In this document: positions 8,086 to 31,548 of the stretch, one piece after another | Position numbering within the stretch: the stretch's first letter is position 1 | Layout of the letters: every line of letters starts with the position of its first letter | NCBI GenBank assembly: GCA_022360675.1 | Contig: JAKSCJ010000321.1 | Location: 1 to 45,479, forward strand | Source: Lysobacterales bacterium | Lineage (GTDB): Bacteria; Pseudomonadota; Gammaproteobacteria; Xanthomonadales; Wenzhouxiangellaceae | Reading direction: 5' to 3' | Length of the DNA: 45,479 bases | Translations under genes and position numbers: made by a program | The notes under the pieces: model-generated | Databases searched by the model: none | What the model was told of the DNA's origin: nothing | Seen by the model: only the letters and a program-made list of their open reading frames with translations

Positions 8086-8274
8086 GCACCCTCTGCGTTG
8101 TGCGCCAGTGTATCGCATATGCCTTGTCCCTATTTATTGGCCTTGGGTAGGCGATGCAGGTGGTCTGTGTGCATGTTCGCCTGTGAGCGAAACGCCTTCG
8201 ACCCTGCTCTTAGCCCACCCACCTGAACCTTTGGTTCAAGGTCCCCGGTATGCAGCGGCTTCTGTGGAGGGTGC
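8086..8274 (+). ncRNA. ssrS: 6S RNA
   Basis: 6S RNA mimics an open promoter and holds sigma70 RNA polymerase in stationary phase. The ends pair perfectly over eight bases (GCACCCTC at 8086-8093 with GAGGGTGC at 8267-8274), giving a 189-nt rod. Inside, CAGGTGG (8157) can pair with CCACCTG (8218). The hairpin TGAACC-TTT-GGTTCA then matches the conserved 3' hairpin seen in E. coli 6S RNA, followed by a GTATGCAGCGGC stretch like its 3' arm. Position between zapA and fau is the canonical site. Exact ends are set from pairing and may be off by a few bases. Confidence 0.9.
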
Positions 8275-25046: not shown

Positions 25047-28000
25047 TTACTCTTCCACCGGACAGATATTCACATCATCCAAGCCGGCTTCAACTAAGTC
25101 GCCATCCGCCGGGCCATCTTCGGCACGTACACGAATTTGAACTTGCGAGCCCGCAGGAATAGCCGTTTCAGGCGCATCGGTCCAAACCGCATTGGATTGC
25201 TCATCGGCATTCAGAGCCACCGCGCGGAAAGTGCTACCACCATCAGTGGAAACTTCTAAGGCGAAGAAGTCACGAGCATCGTCACCGGTATCACGTTGAC
25301 CATGGAAGTACGCCATGTTCAATGTGGAATCTTCAGTAACATCCACAACAGGCGATAACAAGATGCATTGGCCATCGTCCACATCATCCACACCCACTGA
25401 GCTATTAGGTGCGGTGAACATGGCACTACCGCTACCTGAAGTGTTGTCGCCGCCCACTTGGGTGATTACGCCGCCATCACTTTGTTCGCTAGGTGTACCG
25501 CGAATGAAGTTACCGGTGGCACAGGTGGAGTTATTGGGCACAAACCAGCCTTCGGAATCGGTATCGAAGTCTTGTTGCAATGCACATTGACGCGGTGGTT
25601 CTTCTACATCTTCAAAGACACGCACACAACGGAAGCGGCCTTCAGCTTCTTGCGGCGGCGCATCGCGATCATTCACAAACAATAAGCGCATGCTGCTGCC
25701 GGTGAAGGTTTGGCCCACCGGTACACGGAAGGTTTCGAAGTTACCCGAACCACTGTATTGCGGCTCGAAAGTAAAGCCAAAGTTTTGCGTACCAAAGAAA
25801 CGGAAGATGCGATCGGCACTTAAGATATCGTCTTCATCAAAACCGATACCATGAATCTCACCTTGCAAGTTACTGGCAAACTGGAATTCCACCACAGTAT
25901 CTGGAGTCACTTCAAACGTTTGTACCGAAGCGCGCCAGCGATTGCCTTGCAATGCCAAGGTATCGCCACCGTCTTCTACCGTCACTGAACCTGTAGCGGT
26001 ATTGTCTTGGTTAGAGAAACTGGTGGTGGCAAAGGCATTAAAGTTAATAGAACCCGCAGGGCAGTTACCGGTAGGCGGTGCGGTTACCGTAACGGTTTGT
26101 GAAGCGCTATCGCTTGCGCCGTCGTTATCGGTCACAGTTAACGTAACGTTGAAGCTACCAGAGTTGCTATAAACATTGCTGGTGGTCACACCGCTACCGT
26201 TCGTGCCATCACCGAAGTCCCAACTATAGCTAACGATATTGCCATCGCTATCGCTGCTGGCATTGGCATCGAAGTTACAGCTCAACTCATTACAACTGAA
26301 GTTGAAGTCGGCGACAGGCGGTGTGTTGCCATCGTTACCACAGGAAGGAATACGGAACGAACAAACACGTGTATTCCATTCGAAGTTACCCGTGGTTTGT
26401 ACGTATTCATTCGAGATCCAGAAGGTACATTGATCTACAGGATCCATACTGGCTGAAGCATAGTCGGCCCAGCGATTAATACCTTGTGCAGAGCCCGTAC
26501 CATTCACACAAACCGACTCTTGTTGAACGGCACCCGGGCCATCTACACCACGCTCATGCACGGTGAAGAAAATAGACGGGAAGGTGCTGTTGCTGGCACG
26601 CGTATAACCAATACCTACGTTACCATCTTGGTCGATGGTGGCAGAGCCCATCCAGCGGTTTTCACCATCACCAAAATCAATCACACCTAGTTGATCGCCA
26701 TTGTCGGTAATGCTGGTGCCGTTATTGGCAGGATCAATATCAATACCAATCCATTGCACGCCAGCGCGATCGCCGCCAACATCCACATTCGTGGTGCTCA
26801 CGCCACGTAATACCCCTTCATTGGGGAAGAAACGTAAGTTAAAGCGATACAAAGTCATGGCCGCTAAAGAATCTAAATTTTGCGGACCAGGTTGCTGGAT
26901 ACAATCGCGACTGAAGCCACATAAGTTTTTATCGAACGGTGGCACTGCCACGCTATCGATTTGGCTCAATGTGGAGGCATTGGGATTATCGAAATTAACA
27001 CAGGCTTCCCACATGCGATAACGATCGGGACCAGGTCCACCAAAGGCTTCCACGTCGGTCGCATGTACTAAGTAGTTACAAGTACCGGCAGGAGGTAAAC
27101 TGGGGCCTTCTAAGTTACCGGCCATAACACCAAACTCCAGCGGATCGCCACTGGTGGAATTGGTGAATTGAACGAAGCCCGCATTGGGATCGCCCGCCAA
27201 CATAGAAGTACGGTCAAAGATGGTTAAGTTCACACCCGCAAAGCTTAAAGGATTACCGGCAAACTCGTGGGTAGTCATGTAATAGCCGTCGGGCCATACA
27301 CCGATCTTTGGATAATCGTTAAAGGCACCGGGGCTCACATTGAAGTCGTATAGCGTATACGGGCCCGCCGGATCTTCACCATCGGAGATCGCCACACACT
27401 GGTGACCATCGGGCAGTACCGTACCGGTAAACTGGCTAAACAACCAACGACCGGCTAAGTGATCATAAAGTACGATAGGGTCGCCAGCGTTTTGGTTTTC
27501 ACAAACCCCACCAAACCCTTGCCAAAAGATATTGCCCGGGAATGGACCACCGGCAACAGAGCCATCGTCTTTATTGAAGAAAACCCAGCCTAAGTTCACA
27601 TACATCACGTAGTGATCGATACCCACGTCACCATTGGTATCGGGTGGTGCAATACGACCACCTACCAACGCTACGTTATCGTCGTTGGAATAACCTTCAA
27701 TACTTAAGATCGCACTGGGTGCACGGGTCGCCGAGCTGTTACTGCGCTCTCTGGCCAATACATTATCGCTAGGAGCGTTTTTCTCCAGCAATGCATTGAG
27801 TTCAATATCGCGGGGTAGCGCATGGCGATTAATCTCACCACTACGCGGAATAAAATCGCCAGGTTGTTTACCCGAACGTTTAAGCAACTCTTGTAATGAA
27901 GGTGCGCGTCCGGTACGTACTGCGGCTTGGCTCTTAGCTTCAGGTGGTGCCACTACACCCGGGTCACTACCTTTACTTTCGCTAAGTTGGGCATTGGCAT

Positions 28001-28064
28001 TTGTGCCCAGTGCAGCTAATAAAACAGCAGCACAACAAACACCAGCCTTTAAGTCAAAGTGCAT
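25047..28064 (-). CDS. Large secreted multidomain protein with PKD domain
   Basis: About 1005 residues. The ATG at 28064 has GGAGG nine bases upstream and starts a signal peptide ending near GTNANA; ATGs at 28070 and 28088 are alternatives. A pro-like segment (RTGRAPSLQELLKRSGKQPG) is followed by a beta-rich module of about 460 residues containing PPDTNGDVGIDHYVMYVNLG, GDPIVLYDHLAGRW and DYPKIGVWPDGYYMTTHEF; this module is shared with the gene at 28623. A PKD domain (SYSWDFGDGTNGSG) follows, then a domain with NRWRASVQTFEVTPD, and a C-terminal jelly-roll-like domain ending CPVEE. No catalytic site was recognised. Likely extracellular; polysaccharide or protein binding is possible but not shown. 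Confidence 0.82.
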   Translation of the reverse strand: MHFDLKAGVCCAAVLLAALGTNANAQLSESKGSDPGVVAPPEAKSQAAVRTGRAPSLQELLKRSGKQPGDFIPRSGEINRHALPRDIELNALLEKNAPSDNVLARERSNSSATRAPSAILSIEGYSNDDNVALVGGRIAPPDTNGDVGIDHYVMYVNLGWVFFNKDDGSVAGGPFPGNIFWQGFGGVCENQNAGDPIVLYDHLAGRWLFSQFTGTVLPDGHQCVAISDGEDPAGPYTLYDFNVSPGAFNDYPKIGVWPDGYYMTTHEFAGNPLSFAGVNLTIFDRTSMLAGDPNAGFVQFTNSTSGDPLEFGVMAGNLEGPSLPPAGTCNYLVHATDVEAFGGPGPDRYRMWEACVNFDNPNASTLSQIDSVAVPPFDKNLCGFSRDCIQQPGPQNLDSLAAMTLYRFNLRFFPNEGVLRGVSTTNVDVGGDRAGVQWIGIDIDPANNGTSITDNGDQLGVIDFGDGENRWMGSATIDQDGNVGIGYTRASNSTFPSIFFTVHERGVDGPGAVQQESVCVNGTGSAQGINRWADYASASMDPVDQCTFWISNEYVQTTGNFEWNTRVCSFRIPSCGNDGNTPPVADFNFSCNELSCNFDANASSDSDGNIVSYSWDFGDGTNGSGVTTSNVYSNSGSFNVTLTVTDNDGASDSASQTVTVTAPPTGNCPAGSINFNAFATTSFSNQDNTATGSVTVEDGGDTLALQGNRWRASVQTFEVTPDTVVEFQFASNLQGEIHGIGFDEDDILSADRIFRFFGTQNFGFTFEPQYSGSGNFETFRVPVGQTFTGSSMRLLFVNDRDAPPQEAEGRFRCVRVFEDVEEPPRQCALQQDFDTDSEGWFVPNNSTCATGNFIRGTPSEQSDGGVITQVGGDNTSGSGSAMFTAPNSSVGVDDVDDGQCILLSPVVDVTEDSTLNMAYFHGQRDTGDDARDFFALEVSTDGGSTFRAVALNADEQSNAVWTDAPETAIPAGSQVQIRVRAEDGPADGDLVEAGLDDVNICPVEE

Positions 28065-28140
28065 GGTCATTATCCTCCCAGAATACATCCATGACTTGAG
28101 ATCGACACGGTCGATTTCATTAAGAATACTGGTTTCCGTG

Positions 28141-28210
28141 TATCCTCATTAGGTGGTTATAAAGCTTTTTAAAATCGCACCCCACCTTAGGTGCTGGCAG
28201 TAGTTACTGC
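28141..28210 (-). ncRNA. Candidate structured 5' leader (copy A), hairpins plus pseudoknot
   Basis: In reverse RNA, going 5' to 3': hairpin P1 (GCAGTA-AC-TACTGC, 28210-28197), hairpin P2 (GCACC/GGTGC, 28194-28177) with loop TAAGGTGG, a 20-base AT-rich link, then CCACCT (28156-28151), which complements AGGTGG in the P2 loop, then GAGGATA. Copy B at 31231-31298 has the same order with different but still pairing P1 and P2 stems. CCACCT can instead pair locally with the AGG three bases later, so two states are possible. It lies 87 bases before the start codon of the secreted-protein gene. I match it to no known riboswitch. Confidence 0.5.
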
Positions 28211-28238
28211 AGATATGCAACAGAAGCCAGCGAAGCCG

Positions 28239-28244
28239 ATATTA
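28239..28244 (-). promoter_or_regulatory. Candidate -10 element (TAATAT) before leader A
   Basis: TAATATCGG lies 29 bases before hairpin P1. The paralogous leader has TAGTATCG at the matching place. No convincing -35 was found. Confidence 0.3.
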
Positions 28245-28554
28245 GCACAGCATTTTAAAAAACAGAATGATAATTACCCCAACTGTCAACCAGCTAACGT
28301 TTGATTTTAATTGAGAAAATTAAAATATATATTTTATAAGTTACTGATACCCAGACAGATCATCATCTCAAAAAAACATTCTTATTCATCTCAATAAACA
28401 CGATATAAAAAGCCATTATTGCTAACAGTTTCATCTTATCGTTTTCGTTTATATTTTCTTTTATCAATACATTAAAAAGATATTTATAGTTATCTATACC
28501 ATCACTATCGCAACATCACATATAGCATCGATAAACAGTGTCGCCATCAACATA
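28245..28554. other. AT-rich intergenic region, no gene
   Basis: Very AT-rich sequence without reading frames, between leader A and the terminator of the upstream paralogue. A weak 11-of-19 Fur-like match lies near 28264-28282; it is not called. Confidence 0.5.
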
Positions 28555-28584
28555 AAAAAAAGCCCGCACGAGGCGGGCTTTTTT
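28555..28584 (-). terminator. Rho-independent terminator of the second secreted-protein gene
   Basis: GCCCGC-ACGAG-GCGGGC (28562-28578) is flanked by seven A on the left and six T on the right, so it can act in both directions. It lies 38 bases beyond the stop at 28623. Confidence 0.9.
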
Positions 28585-28622
28585 ATTTTCACCAAAATGT
28601 CTGTAAAGCTAATGATTGCTCA

Positions 28623-31151
28623 TTAGTTACCGATCACCATAAAGCCAACCACTTCAGTAGTGTGGTTGATTTCGGTATCACGTGACTGCTCTTCTTCCAC
28701 TTTAACTTCAACACCATCAGCATTTAAATTACGGAAACGTAATGCAGAGGTATCACCACCATCGCGGGTTTGCATACCGGCGATAAAGTTAGGTGCATTG
28801 ACCGCTTGACCAAAGGCGATTTGGAAGAAGTTATGCGTCACGCTGTCGCCAGTGCGACCAACAACGATATTTTGACCATTCACCTGAGCACTGCCGGCAC
28901 TAATGGCAATATAGTGCAGGGTTTCATTGGCATGGCCACTGCCACGAATTTGCTCTTCTTCCTCGATACGGTGAGCAAAGCTATTCGCTGAGATGTTACG
29001 AATACGAGGAATCACAGCGGTGGCTTCATTAACGGTACCTACTTGAGTCAGTACCACCGGTGCAGCGGCAAAGCCTTGACCAAAACTCAATACCGATTCA
29101 CTGCTGTTTGAAGAGACCGTACCGGCTTCAATCTGCAAACCACCAATAGTCGATTGACCCGATTCAACCACCACATAGCTGATGGACTCGGTGATGTGAC
29201 GGCCATCTAAGTATTCCCATTCATCAATCTGGAATTCAAAGCTTGAAGCCGTAACATTACGCACACGAATGCTGGTGGGCTGGGTTCCATTAAAGCTGGG
29301 TGGACCCATAACCACTACGGGGTTATTAAAGCTTTCAGTCAAGTTAACTAAGTGCCATTCCGCACTGTTTTCTTGATCGACAGAAACGGTGCCGGTTTCG
29401 AATGTGGCATCATCACCGCCGCCGCCGTTATCGCCACAGGAAGGAATGCGGAAAGAACAAACTCGAGTATTCCACTCAAAGTTACCTGTGGTTTGCACAT
29501 ACTCATTGGCAATCCAGAAGGTGCATTGATCGACTGGATCCATACTGGCTGAGGCATAGTCGGCCCACCGGTTGGCACCTTCATGAGAACCGGTACCGGT
29601 AACACAAACAGACTCTTGTTGAACCGCGCCAGGGCCATCGACACCGCGCTCGTGTACGGTGAAATAAACACCGGGGAAGGTGGAATTACTGGCGCGTGTA
29701 TAACCGATGCCCACGTTGCCATCTTGGTCGATAGTCGCCGAACCCATCCAGCGGTTTTCGCCATCGCCGAAGTCAATCACACCCAGTTGATCGCCATTAT
29801 CAGCGATAGCTGTGGCATTGTTGGCGGGATTAATCTCAATACCTGCCCATTGCACACCTGCACGATCAGCGCCCACATCCACATTCGTGGTGCTCACACC
29901 ACGCAGCAGGCTATCGTTGGGGAAGTAACGTAAATTAAAGCGATAGAGTGTCATTGCCGCCAGCGAATCCAGGCTCTGCGGGCCTGGCTGCTGGATACAG
30001 TTACGGCTAAATCCACACAGATTTTTATCAAAGGCCGGGACATTGATACCGCTAATTTGGTTCACCGTAGAAGCACCGGGGTTATCGAAGTCGATACAGG
30101 CTTCCCACAGGCGGTAACGGTCAGCACCTGACACACCAAAGGCTTCCACATCGGTGGCATGCACGAGGTAGTTACAGGTGCCATTGGGTGGTAAATCTGG
30201 CCCTTCCAAATTACCCGCTATCGTGCCGAAGGTCAGTGGATCGCCATTGGTCACATTGCTGAACTGAACAAAACCAGCATTCGGATCACCGGCCAGCATC
30301 GCATCACGATCAAATACCGTGAGGTTCACCCCTTGGAATTGCAGATTGGGGCCACCGAACTCGTGGGTGGTCATGTAGTAGCCATCGGTCCATAAACCGA
30401 TTTTCGGGTAATCGTTAAACGCACCAGGGCTCACGACGAAGTCGTACAAGGTATATGGACCCGCAGGGTCTTCACCATCAGAAATCGCCACACACTGGTG
30501 GCCATCGGCAATGGCAGTGCCTGTGAACTGACTGAACATCCAGCGCCCAGCTAAATGATCGTATAAAACAATCGGGTCGCCAGCATTTTGGGTTTCACAA
30601 ACCCCACCAAAGCCCTGCCAGAAAATATTACCGGCAAAGGGGCCGCCAGCAACTGAGCCGTCGGATTTGTTGAAAAACATCCAACCCAAGTTGACATACA
30701 TGGCGTAATGATCGATACCAACATCACCATTGGTATCGGGAGGAGTGACTCGGCCACCCACCAAGGCGGCGTTATCGTCATTGGAGTAGCCGTCGATGCT
30801 CAAAATAGCGGCCGGCGCTTGAGCACGTGAAGTGTTGCTTCGTTCATTCGCCAGCACATTGTTTGTGGGGCGTTGGTTATCGAGCAAAGCATTGATTTCT
30901 ATAGAGCGTGGTAAGGCGTGGGTATTAATTTCGCCTTCCTTCTCCACTAGCGTGGGTGCACGGCCACCGGTGCGCTTTTGGAGTTCAGATAATGCTGGTG
31001 CACGACCGCTACGGACTGCAACATTAGCAGTGCCGCTTACAGGGCGTGTTCCATCACTATTTTTTTCATCGAGGGATTGAGCTGTTGCTGCAAAAGAATA
31101 CGAAAGAAGAAAACTGGCACAACATAAGCCAGTTATCGCTCGTAAATTCAT
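28623..31151 (-). CDS. Large secreted protein with three C-terminal beta-type repeats
   Basis: 842 residues; the ATG at 31151 has GGGAGA upstream and a signal peptide (MNLRAITGLCCASFLLSYSF, then AATA-Q). Residues to about 570 are closely alike to the protein at 25047, including PPDTNGDVGIDHYAMYVNLG and DYPKIGLWTDGYYMTTHEF. The C-terminus is entirely different. Three tandem units of about 85-90 residues each run from an ETGTV- or VGRTG-type start through an F..P.V strand and an RxRN motif (VRVRN variants, PRIRNISANSF, LRFRNLNADG) to an EEE/DEW and H-x-x-E stretch. These look like carbohydrate- or surface-binding beta-sandwich repeats, but no function is proven. It arose by tandem duplication with exchange of the C-terminal module. 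Confidence 0.82.
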   Translation of the reverse strand: MNLRAITGLCCASFLLSYSFAATAQSLDEKNSDGTRPVSGTANVAVRSGRAPALSELQKRTGGRAPTLVEKEGEINTHALPRSIEINALLDNQRPTNNVLANERSNTSRAQAPAAILSIDGYSNDDNAALVGGRVTPPDTNGDVGIDHYAMYVNLGWMFFNKSDGSVAGGPFAGNIFWQGFGGVCETQNAGDPIVLYDHLAGRWMFSQFTGTAIADGHQCVAISDGEDPAGPYTLYDFVVSPGAFNDYPKIGLWTDGYYMTTHEFGGPNLQFQGVNLTVFDRDAMLAGDPNAGFVQFSNVTNGDPLTFGTIAGNLEGPDLPPNGTCNYLVHATDVEAFGVSGADRYRLWEACIDFDNPGASTVNQISGINVPAFDKNLCGFSRNCIQQPGPQSLDSLAAMTLYRFNLRYFPNDSLLRGVSTTNVDVGADRAGVQWAGIEINPANNATAIADNGDQLGVIDFGDGENRWMGSATIDQDGNVGIGYTRASNSTFPGVYFTVHERGVDGPGAVQQESVCVTGTGSHEGANRWADYASASMDPVDQCTFWIANEYVQTTGNFEWNTRVCSFRIPSCGDNGGGGDDATFETGTVSVDQENSAEWHLVNLTESFNNPVVVMGPPSFNGTQPTSIRVRNVTASSFEFQIDEWEYLDGRHITESISYVVVESGQSTIGGLQIEAGTVSSNSSESVLSFGQGFAAAPVVLTQVGTVNEATAVIPRIRNISANSFAHRIEEEEQIRGSGHANETLHYIAISAGSAQVNGQNIVVGRTGDSVTHNFFQIAFGQAVNAPNFIAGMQTRDGGDTSALRFRNLNADGVEVKVEEEQSRDTEINHTTEVVGFMVIGN

Positions 31152-31230
31152 GAATTGTCTCCCAAATTACGTCCTTGAAAAGAAGCTTGTATGCTTCCTT
31201 ACGAAATAGATCAATAAATTGATCCTTCGA

Positions 31231-31298
31231 TATCCTCTGGGAGGTGGCTGTATTTACTCAGTGCGCATTCCACCTTAATGCTGGCTCTGCGAGAGCCA
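31231..31298 (-). ncRNA. Candidate structured 5' leader (copy B), hairpins plus pseudoknot
   Basis: In reverse RNA: hairpin P1 (TGGCTCT-CGC-AGAGCCA, 31298-31282), hairpin P2 (GCATT/AATGC, 31281-31265) with loop AAGGTGG, a 17-base link, then CCACCT (31247-31242), then GAGGATA. Compared with copy A, P2 changes two C-G pairs to T-A pairs while the loop and its distant complement stay the same, and P1 changes nearly every base yet still pairs. CCTC can also pair locally with GAGG (CCTC-CCA-GAGG), competing with the pseudoknot. It starts 91 bases before the start codon, almost the same distance as in copy A. Confidence 0.5.
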
Positions 31299-31321
31299 AG
31301 TAGCTCCGAGCTATGCACTCG

Positions 31322-31327
31322 ATACTA
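31322..31327 (-). promoter_or_regulatory. Candidate -10 element (TAGTAT) before leader B
   Basis: TAGTATCG lies 24 bases before hairpin P1 of copy B, corresponding to TAATATCG before copy A. If used, the RNA would begin a few bases before P1. No clear -35. Confidence 0.3.
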
Positions 31328-31495
31328 ACAGCAACAGAAATTTAGTAACGAATGAAACAAATTATTTGAATAAGAGCTAAGTTGGCTAATTCTTGTTGAG
31401 CCCGCGCCATTACAGGTTTTTCAGTGGGAAAATAGGCGAACTTTCATTCCAGATACTCTTGACAAACTGTTTTTAGCAAAAAAATCAATCAAACG
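31328..31495. other. Intergenic region, nothing else recognised
   Basis: AT-rich spacer between leader B and the terminator of the ribosomal cluster. No reading frame or repeat that I can support. Confidence 0.4.
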
Positions 31496-31524
31496 AAAAA
31501 AAGCCCGGCTTTGCCGGGCTTTTT
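31496..31524 (-). terminator. Terminator at the end of the ribosomal-protein cluster
   Basis: GCCCGGC-TTT-GCCGGGC (31503-31519) has seven A before and five T after, 24 bases beyond the rplQ stop. It ends the alpha operon transcript and may also work in the other direction. Confidence 0.92.
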
Positions 31525-31548
31525 CATTCTGAAAATAAGCGCTATAGC

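Follow-up and report, generated by a model that had tools for sequence, protein, structure and literature searches.

On balance, we lean towards the view that the leaders of two neighboring paralogous genes for secreted proteins in a Lysobacterales bacterium are 5' untranslated regions (UTRs) under CsrA/RsmA-type translational control, which also carry a lineage-restricted structural element. The window, which is the whole stretch of DNA analysed (45,479 nucleotides, contig JAKSCJ010000321.1), had previously been read from its letters, and this first-pass annotation described the leader of one of the genes as a pseudoknot-like RNA with the features of a switch. Judged from its sequence, the leader is real and probably functional. 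It resembles a common type of leader, one controlled by a protein, to which an unusual fold has been added, more than it resembles a new riboswitch. A GGA array of the CsrA/RsmA type, missed by the first-pass annotation, appears to account better for GAGGATA and the sequence below it.

The two genes and their setting

Copy A (25047..28088, minus strand) encodes a secreted beta-propeller-like protein, and copy B (28623..31151, minus strand) encodes its paralogue. The C-terminal parts of the two proteins are unlike: that of A has a PKD domain, and that of B gives an H-type lectin match below threshold. Over the aligned residues, 468 of 678 are identical (69%), and four-fold degenerate sites are nearly saturated, with 88 of 221 identical (40%). 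At the sequence level, the duplication is an old one. AlphaFold2 produces a confident, mostly beta model of the shared 485-residue domain (pLDDT 90.5), and its Foldseek matches are mostly beta-propeller proteins, GH43 enzymes and sialidases among them, at low TM-scores. A beta-propeller fold class is plausible for the modelled domain, for which no Pfam or NCBIfam model was found. The family is multicopy with variable C-terminal modules, and its members lie at 25047-31151 of the window and on contigs C217, C333, C388, C488, C226 and C61 of the same genome (G000). Related genera also carry several paralogues per genome. A scan of the genome contigs gave mostly relatives of the C-terminal domain.

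A strong intrinsic terminator precedes each leader (31525-31497 before B and 28584-28556 before A), and therefore copies A and B are probably each on their own transcript. A ribosomal alpha-operon-like cluster is located directly upstream of copy B, with a strong terminator between them (31152-31548). The window also contains 6S RNA (SsrS) at 8087-8274 on the plus strand, with a score of 69.2 bits, which is above the Rfam gathering score.

Organization of the leaders

The leader of copy A lies upstream of the open reading frame (ORF) at 25047-28088 on the minus strand, and that of copy B lies at about 31320-31152. All the leader features below are on the minus strand. An extended -10-like box, conserved between A and B as TGNTARTATCG, lies just 5' of the element in both (TGCTAATAT at 28239..28247 in A and TGTTAGTAT at 31322..31330 in B); we infer that it acts as a promoter and that transcription starts just after it. 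Candidate sigma-54 and NtrC sites, judged by eye, were rejected for spacings that do not fit.

The layout described in the first-pass annotation is present in both copies at verified minus-strand coordinates. From 5' to 3' in the RNA, it consists of P1, P2 with the loop (T)AAGGTGG, a spacer of 20 nt in A and 17 nt in B, CCACCT, 3-4 nt and GAGGATA. The P1 hairpin spans 28195..28229 in A and 31282..31298 in B. It had been said to differ in nearly every base, but its base TGGC/GCCA (28229-28226 with 28198-28195 in A and 31298-31295 with 31285-31282 in B) is identical in the two copies, and only the upper part and the length vary. P2 of copy A (28177..28194) is formed by GCACC (28194-28190) and GGTGC (28181-28177) around the loop TAAGGTGG (28189-28182), and P2 of copy B (31265..31281) by GCATT (31281-31277) and AATGC (31269-31265) around the loop AAGGTGG (31276-31270). 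As had been noticed, two of the pairs are C-G in A but T-A in B. The loop and its distant complement had been called unchanged. The loop core, CCACCT and GAGGATA are indeed invariant, but the P2 loop is one nucleotide shorter in B (7 nt) than in A (8 nt), the T of TAAGGTGG being part of a pair in copy B. CCACCT (28151..28156 in A and 31242..31247 in B) is complementary to AGGTGG of the loop and would form stem S2 of a pseudoknot. GAGGATA (28141..28147 in A and 31231..31237 in B) provides a distal GGA, which is a candidate CsrA site. Tiny possible upstream ORFs are seen right after the AAGGTGG loop, at 28169-28180 in A (GTG CGA TTT TAA) and at 31254-31268 in B (ATG CGC ACT GAG TAA).

CsrA/RsmA-type sites near the start codons

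Both ribosome-binding sites carry TCANGGANGTANTNTGGGAG, as TCATGGATGTATTCTGGGAG in A (28094-28075) and TCAAGGACGTAATTTGGGAG in B (31178-31159), in which an Rsm consensus is followed by the Shine-Dalgarno sequence. The published Rsm motif consists of ten bases, 5'-(A/U)CANGGANG(U/A)-3' (PMC4353343). Both leaders carry this consensus at or near the ribosome-binding site (UCAUGGAUGU and UCAAGGACGU), and A and B are unlike only at its two N positions. The match is perfect in both and lies immediately 5' of the Shine-Dalgarno sequence, within which a further GGA is located. In the whole genome, TCANGGANGTANNNTGGGAG is found only at A and B, even with up to two mismatches allowed. Each leader contains five GGA between CCACCT and the start codon. 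Five GGA within the 110 nt before the start are found in only three of 160 sampled genes, A and B among them (mean 1.4), and CANGGANG before the start in four of 160, again including A and B; these backgrounds, like those given below, are samples of genes and not whole gene sets, and GGA sites by nature overlap the Shine-Dalgarno sequence.

Consistently, (A/U)CANGGANG(A/U) lies within 35 nt of the start in five of 11 close homologue leaders from three genomes, namely A, B and three from a sister genus (L064, L065 and L067), the other six having no Rsm consensus near the start. The same consensus near the start is found in one of 440 other sampled genes of the three genomes. Fisher's test gives about 1e-8, computed on 5/10, but this value serves as a guide only because the homologues are related and not independent. 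The leader of another close homologue, L068 (G007:C31:2500-3900), contains CTGATCAGGAGGATCAG, a hairpin whose loop includes GGA, which likewise resembles a CsrA site.

The CSRA_TARGET criteria for CsrA targets (PMC4066749) were re-implemented for this analysis. Both leaders pass, as do 25 of 441 sampled genes (~6%). An A(N)GGA site lies within -30 to +5 of the start at -26 and -11 in A (start 28064) and at -23 in B. At least three sites with at least two pairs 10-60 nt apart are provided by -81, -73, -26, -14 and -11 in A and by -84, -74, -47 and -23 in B. For individual GGA bases, the predicted probability of being unpaired varies between 0 and about 1, and several GGAs are predicted to be paired. 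The motifs, their enrichment and their conservation can be read directly from the sequences, and the CsrA hypothesis was framed after the sequence had been inspected.

The genome encodes two canonical CsrA proteins (MLILTRRVGE...), one of them after an aspartate-kinase-like gene. Together with four more divergent ones, there are six CsrA-family ORFs (L145, L146; contigs C264, C226, C422 and C120 of G000). One divergent CsrA-like ORF (C226:11240-11338) lies shortly downstream of a paralogue of the secreted-protein genes (C226:9771-11072) and runs towards it. A search for CsrB/RsmZ with the Rfam models, which are narrow, returned nothing above threshold.

The pseudoknot-like element

H-type geometry is workable in both copies, with S1 of 5 bp, S2 of 6 bp, L1 of 2 nt in A and 1 nt in B, L2 of 0 nt and L3 of 20 and 17 nt, respectively. 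A strict H-type pseudoknot (5 bp + 6 bp) arises in 195 of 20000 and 225 of 20000 shuffled leaders (~1%). Two compensated pairs lie in S1, and S2, formed by the loop and CCACCT, never varies and thus contributed none, only two sequences being compared. An H-type pseudoknot in both copies is plausible from this modest evidence, which comes from two sequences.

The first-pass annotation further proposed that pairing of the loop with CCACCT and a local hairpin formed by CCACCT exclude each other as in a switch. The energy of the AGGTGG/CCACCT helix is -8.5 kcal/mol in A and -7.2 kcal/mol in B, whereas the competing hairpin has 3 bp in A (CCT/AGG, -1.4 kcal/mol) and 4 bp in B (CCTC/GAGG, -3.5 kcal/mol). 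Because the competing hairpins are far weaker than the helix, a balanced switch is not indicated by these predictions, least of all in A. In copy B, CTCCCAGA, which overlaps the end of CCACCT, can pair with TTTGGGAG at the Shine-Dalgarno sequence. A counterpart of this pairing was not found in copy A. The two leaders have no expression platform in common.

The element had been said to match no known riboswitch class, and this is borne out: no Rfam family comes near threshold at either leader with gathering or permissive thresholds. A covariance-model search for further homologues with compensatory changes had been suggested. The model built here, R1, treats P2 as pairs and the remainder as sequence. 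It matches A and B only in their own genome, in 43 genomes of the family and in samples of 299 genomes of the order, 369 of the class and 398 of the phylum. These samples overlap somewhat, giving roughly 1,000 distinct other genomes of Pseudomonadota, none of which is of the same genus. One borderline class-level R1 match (G518; E 0.0097 per genome, 369 genomes) was rejected, as it reads as coding sequence and chance would be expected to give such a match. A search of the 43 family genomes with the exact motif likewise gave A and B as the only leader-like matches; two other matches that were inspected look like coding sequence, one in an RHS-like gene (L086) and one in a transporter-like frame (L100). 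On viral contigs, 20 exact pattern matches are at or below chance by a rough estimate. The pairing blocks (AGGTGG..CCACC) are absent from the leaders of homologues in sister genera and from those of the other paralogues in the same genome. Within the set of genomes examined, only these two genes have the fold. The data give no support to a new and widespread ligand-like switch. The element does not qualify as a new riboswitch class because recurrence with compensatory changes is absent beyond A and B, no same-genus genome being among those searched.

Proposed mechanism and alternative explanations

Under CsrA/RsmA-type control, a CsrA dimer would bind the consensus site close to the ribosome-binding site and reach across to the Shine-Dalgarno sequence or to a GGA further upstream; GAGGATA would be such a distal site. 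CsrA bridged in this way would block translation initiation, as in glgC. The secreted beta-propeller-like proteins would then be switched on when CsrA is titrated away, which is normally the task of small RNAs. In the 5' part, P1, P2 and the pairing of the loop with CCACCT would most likely form an H-type pseudoknot that acts as a structural cap and may keep the Shine-Dalgarno-like AGGTGG and the anti-Shine-Dalgarno-like CCACCT off the ribosome-binding site and GAGGATA. Binding, repression and this role of the knot are what we infer from the sequences. It is improbable that P1, P2 and the loop/CCACCT helix form a new small pseudoknot RNA that gates CsrA access to GAGGATA, thereby placing two inputs on one leader. 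If so, the inputs would be a ligand, a protein or a folding event, plus the level of CsrA.

The blocks GCCAGCA, AAGGTGG, TGCG, CCACCT and GAGGATA are invariant between A and B, with poorly alignable sequence between them. It is well supported by the comparison of the two copies that selection, and not recent duplication or conversion, has kept these blocks, because 6-7-mers are invariant though four-fold sites are only 40% identical. In this respect the selected RNA fold claimed earlier stands as selection on the leader, but the compensated pairs carry less weight than was assumed then. With free change on both sides of two C-G pairs, the chance that both still pair is p 0.11 for Watson-Crick pairs and p 0.20 for standard pairs, including G-U. 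The leader might be functionless, its similarity being a residue of the old duplication, as there are only two copies and the match of the 23-nt core lies within shuffles at strict scoring (174/2000). This is very unlikely, however, since the invariant 6-7-mers extend across the leader to the start although neutral sites are nearly saturated, and the colinear alignment of the two leaders is beaten by only 3 of 2000 shuffles. Alternatively, the leader may be under selection for something other than a pseudoknot: the blocks would be protein-binding sites in DNA (an operator) or RNA, and their complementarity would be partly due to chance, with or without CsrA acting downstream. The location of the blocks just after the inferred promoter, the lack of covariation evidence from the unvarying S2 and the p values above are in agreement with this idea. 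However, random blocks would show a perfect 6-nt complementarity like that between the invariant ones with a probability of about 0.004, and P2 pairs perfectly around the loop in both copies, with a short L1 and no L2. We consider protein-binding sites without a pseudoknot rather unlikely.

An independent pseudoknot regulatory RNA, either a riboswitch or a protein-binding aptamer, could control expression alone, in which case the GGA motifs would be incidental. The H-type geometry in both copies, the two compensated P2 pairs, the invariant loop and complement, and the conservation of the blocks against saturated neutral sites would all be expected of such an RNA. It is nevertheless unlikely, because neither an Rfam match nor more copies in its own genome and roughly 1,000 others were found, no link from the knot to the Shine-Dalgarno sequence is common to A and B, and the conserved Rsm consensus at the start is left unexplained. 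Translation or stalling on a tiny leader ORF starting from the loop region could also control the fold, and indeed a start codon and a Shine-Dalgarno-like AAGG are at the same aligned place in both leaders. However, a mere 4 nt separate AAGG from the start codon, the peptides MRF (A) and MRTE (B) have two residues in common, and TGC is needed for P2 pairing anyway, making such an ORF the least probable explanation.

Significance and relation to known systems

CsrA/RsmA-type control, if it operates here, would bring a family of secreted beta-propeller-like proteins that is uncharacterised and often multicopy under the control of CsrA/RsmA, and the consensus site is seen again close to the start in homologues from a second genus. 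Should the CsrA reading fail, the leader would still be a selected one with a lineage-limited structure.

Repression of E. coli glgC by CsrA provides the precedent, together with the SELEX consensus (PMC7652899), and a validated Rsm site, motif B, is known in P. putida cfcR (PMC6849547). The repressed leaders of glgC, of Pseudomonas protegens hcnA and of cfcR have several GGA sites in the 5' UTR and a consensus site at the Shine-Dalgarno sequence or immediately 5' of it, with spacing within 10-60 nt, as do A and B (PMC6849547, PMC7652899, PMC4066749). The 8-mer of motif B in cfcR is the same as CATGGATG of copy A. In contrast to these leaders, the consensus site in A and B is predicted to lie outside a clear hairpin loop, and a 5' pseudoknot-like element comes before the candidate sites.

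H-type pseudoknot riboswitches such as preQ1-I, SAM-II and similar ones have a short L1, no L2 and a longer L3, and their S2 is formed by a loop and a downstream strand. A and B are alike in all these respects. However, S2 lies at the Shine-Dalgarno sequence in the preQ1-I and SAM-II types, whereas in A and B about 80-90 nt separate its end from the start, and the A/B element has no Rfam match and two copies only.

For structure-gated binding of CsrA, the nearest described relative is the moaA (Moco) leader, in which CsrA sites are located inside the aptamer and are activating (PMC7652899). In A and B, the GGA sites are downstream of the fold, and there is no match to the Moco motif. The likeness is the combination of a structured element with CsrA sites, which are candidate sites in A and B, and the pseudoknot-like fold upstream of them is a candidate for structure-gated CsrA binding.
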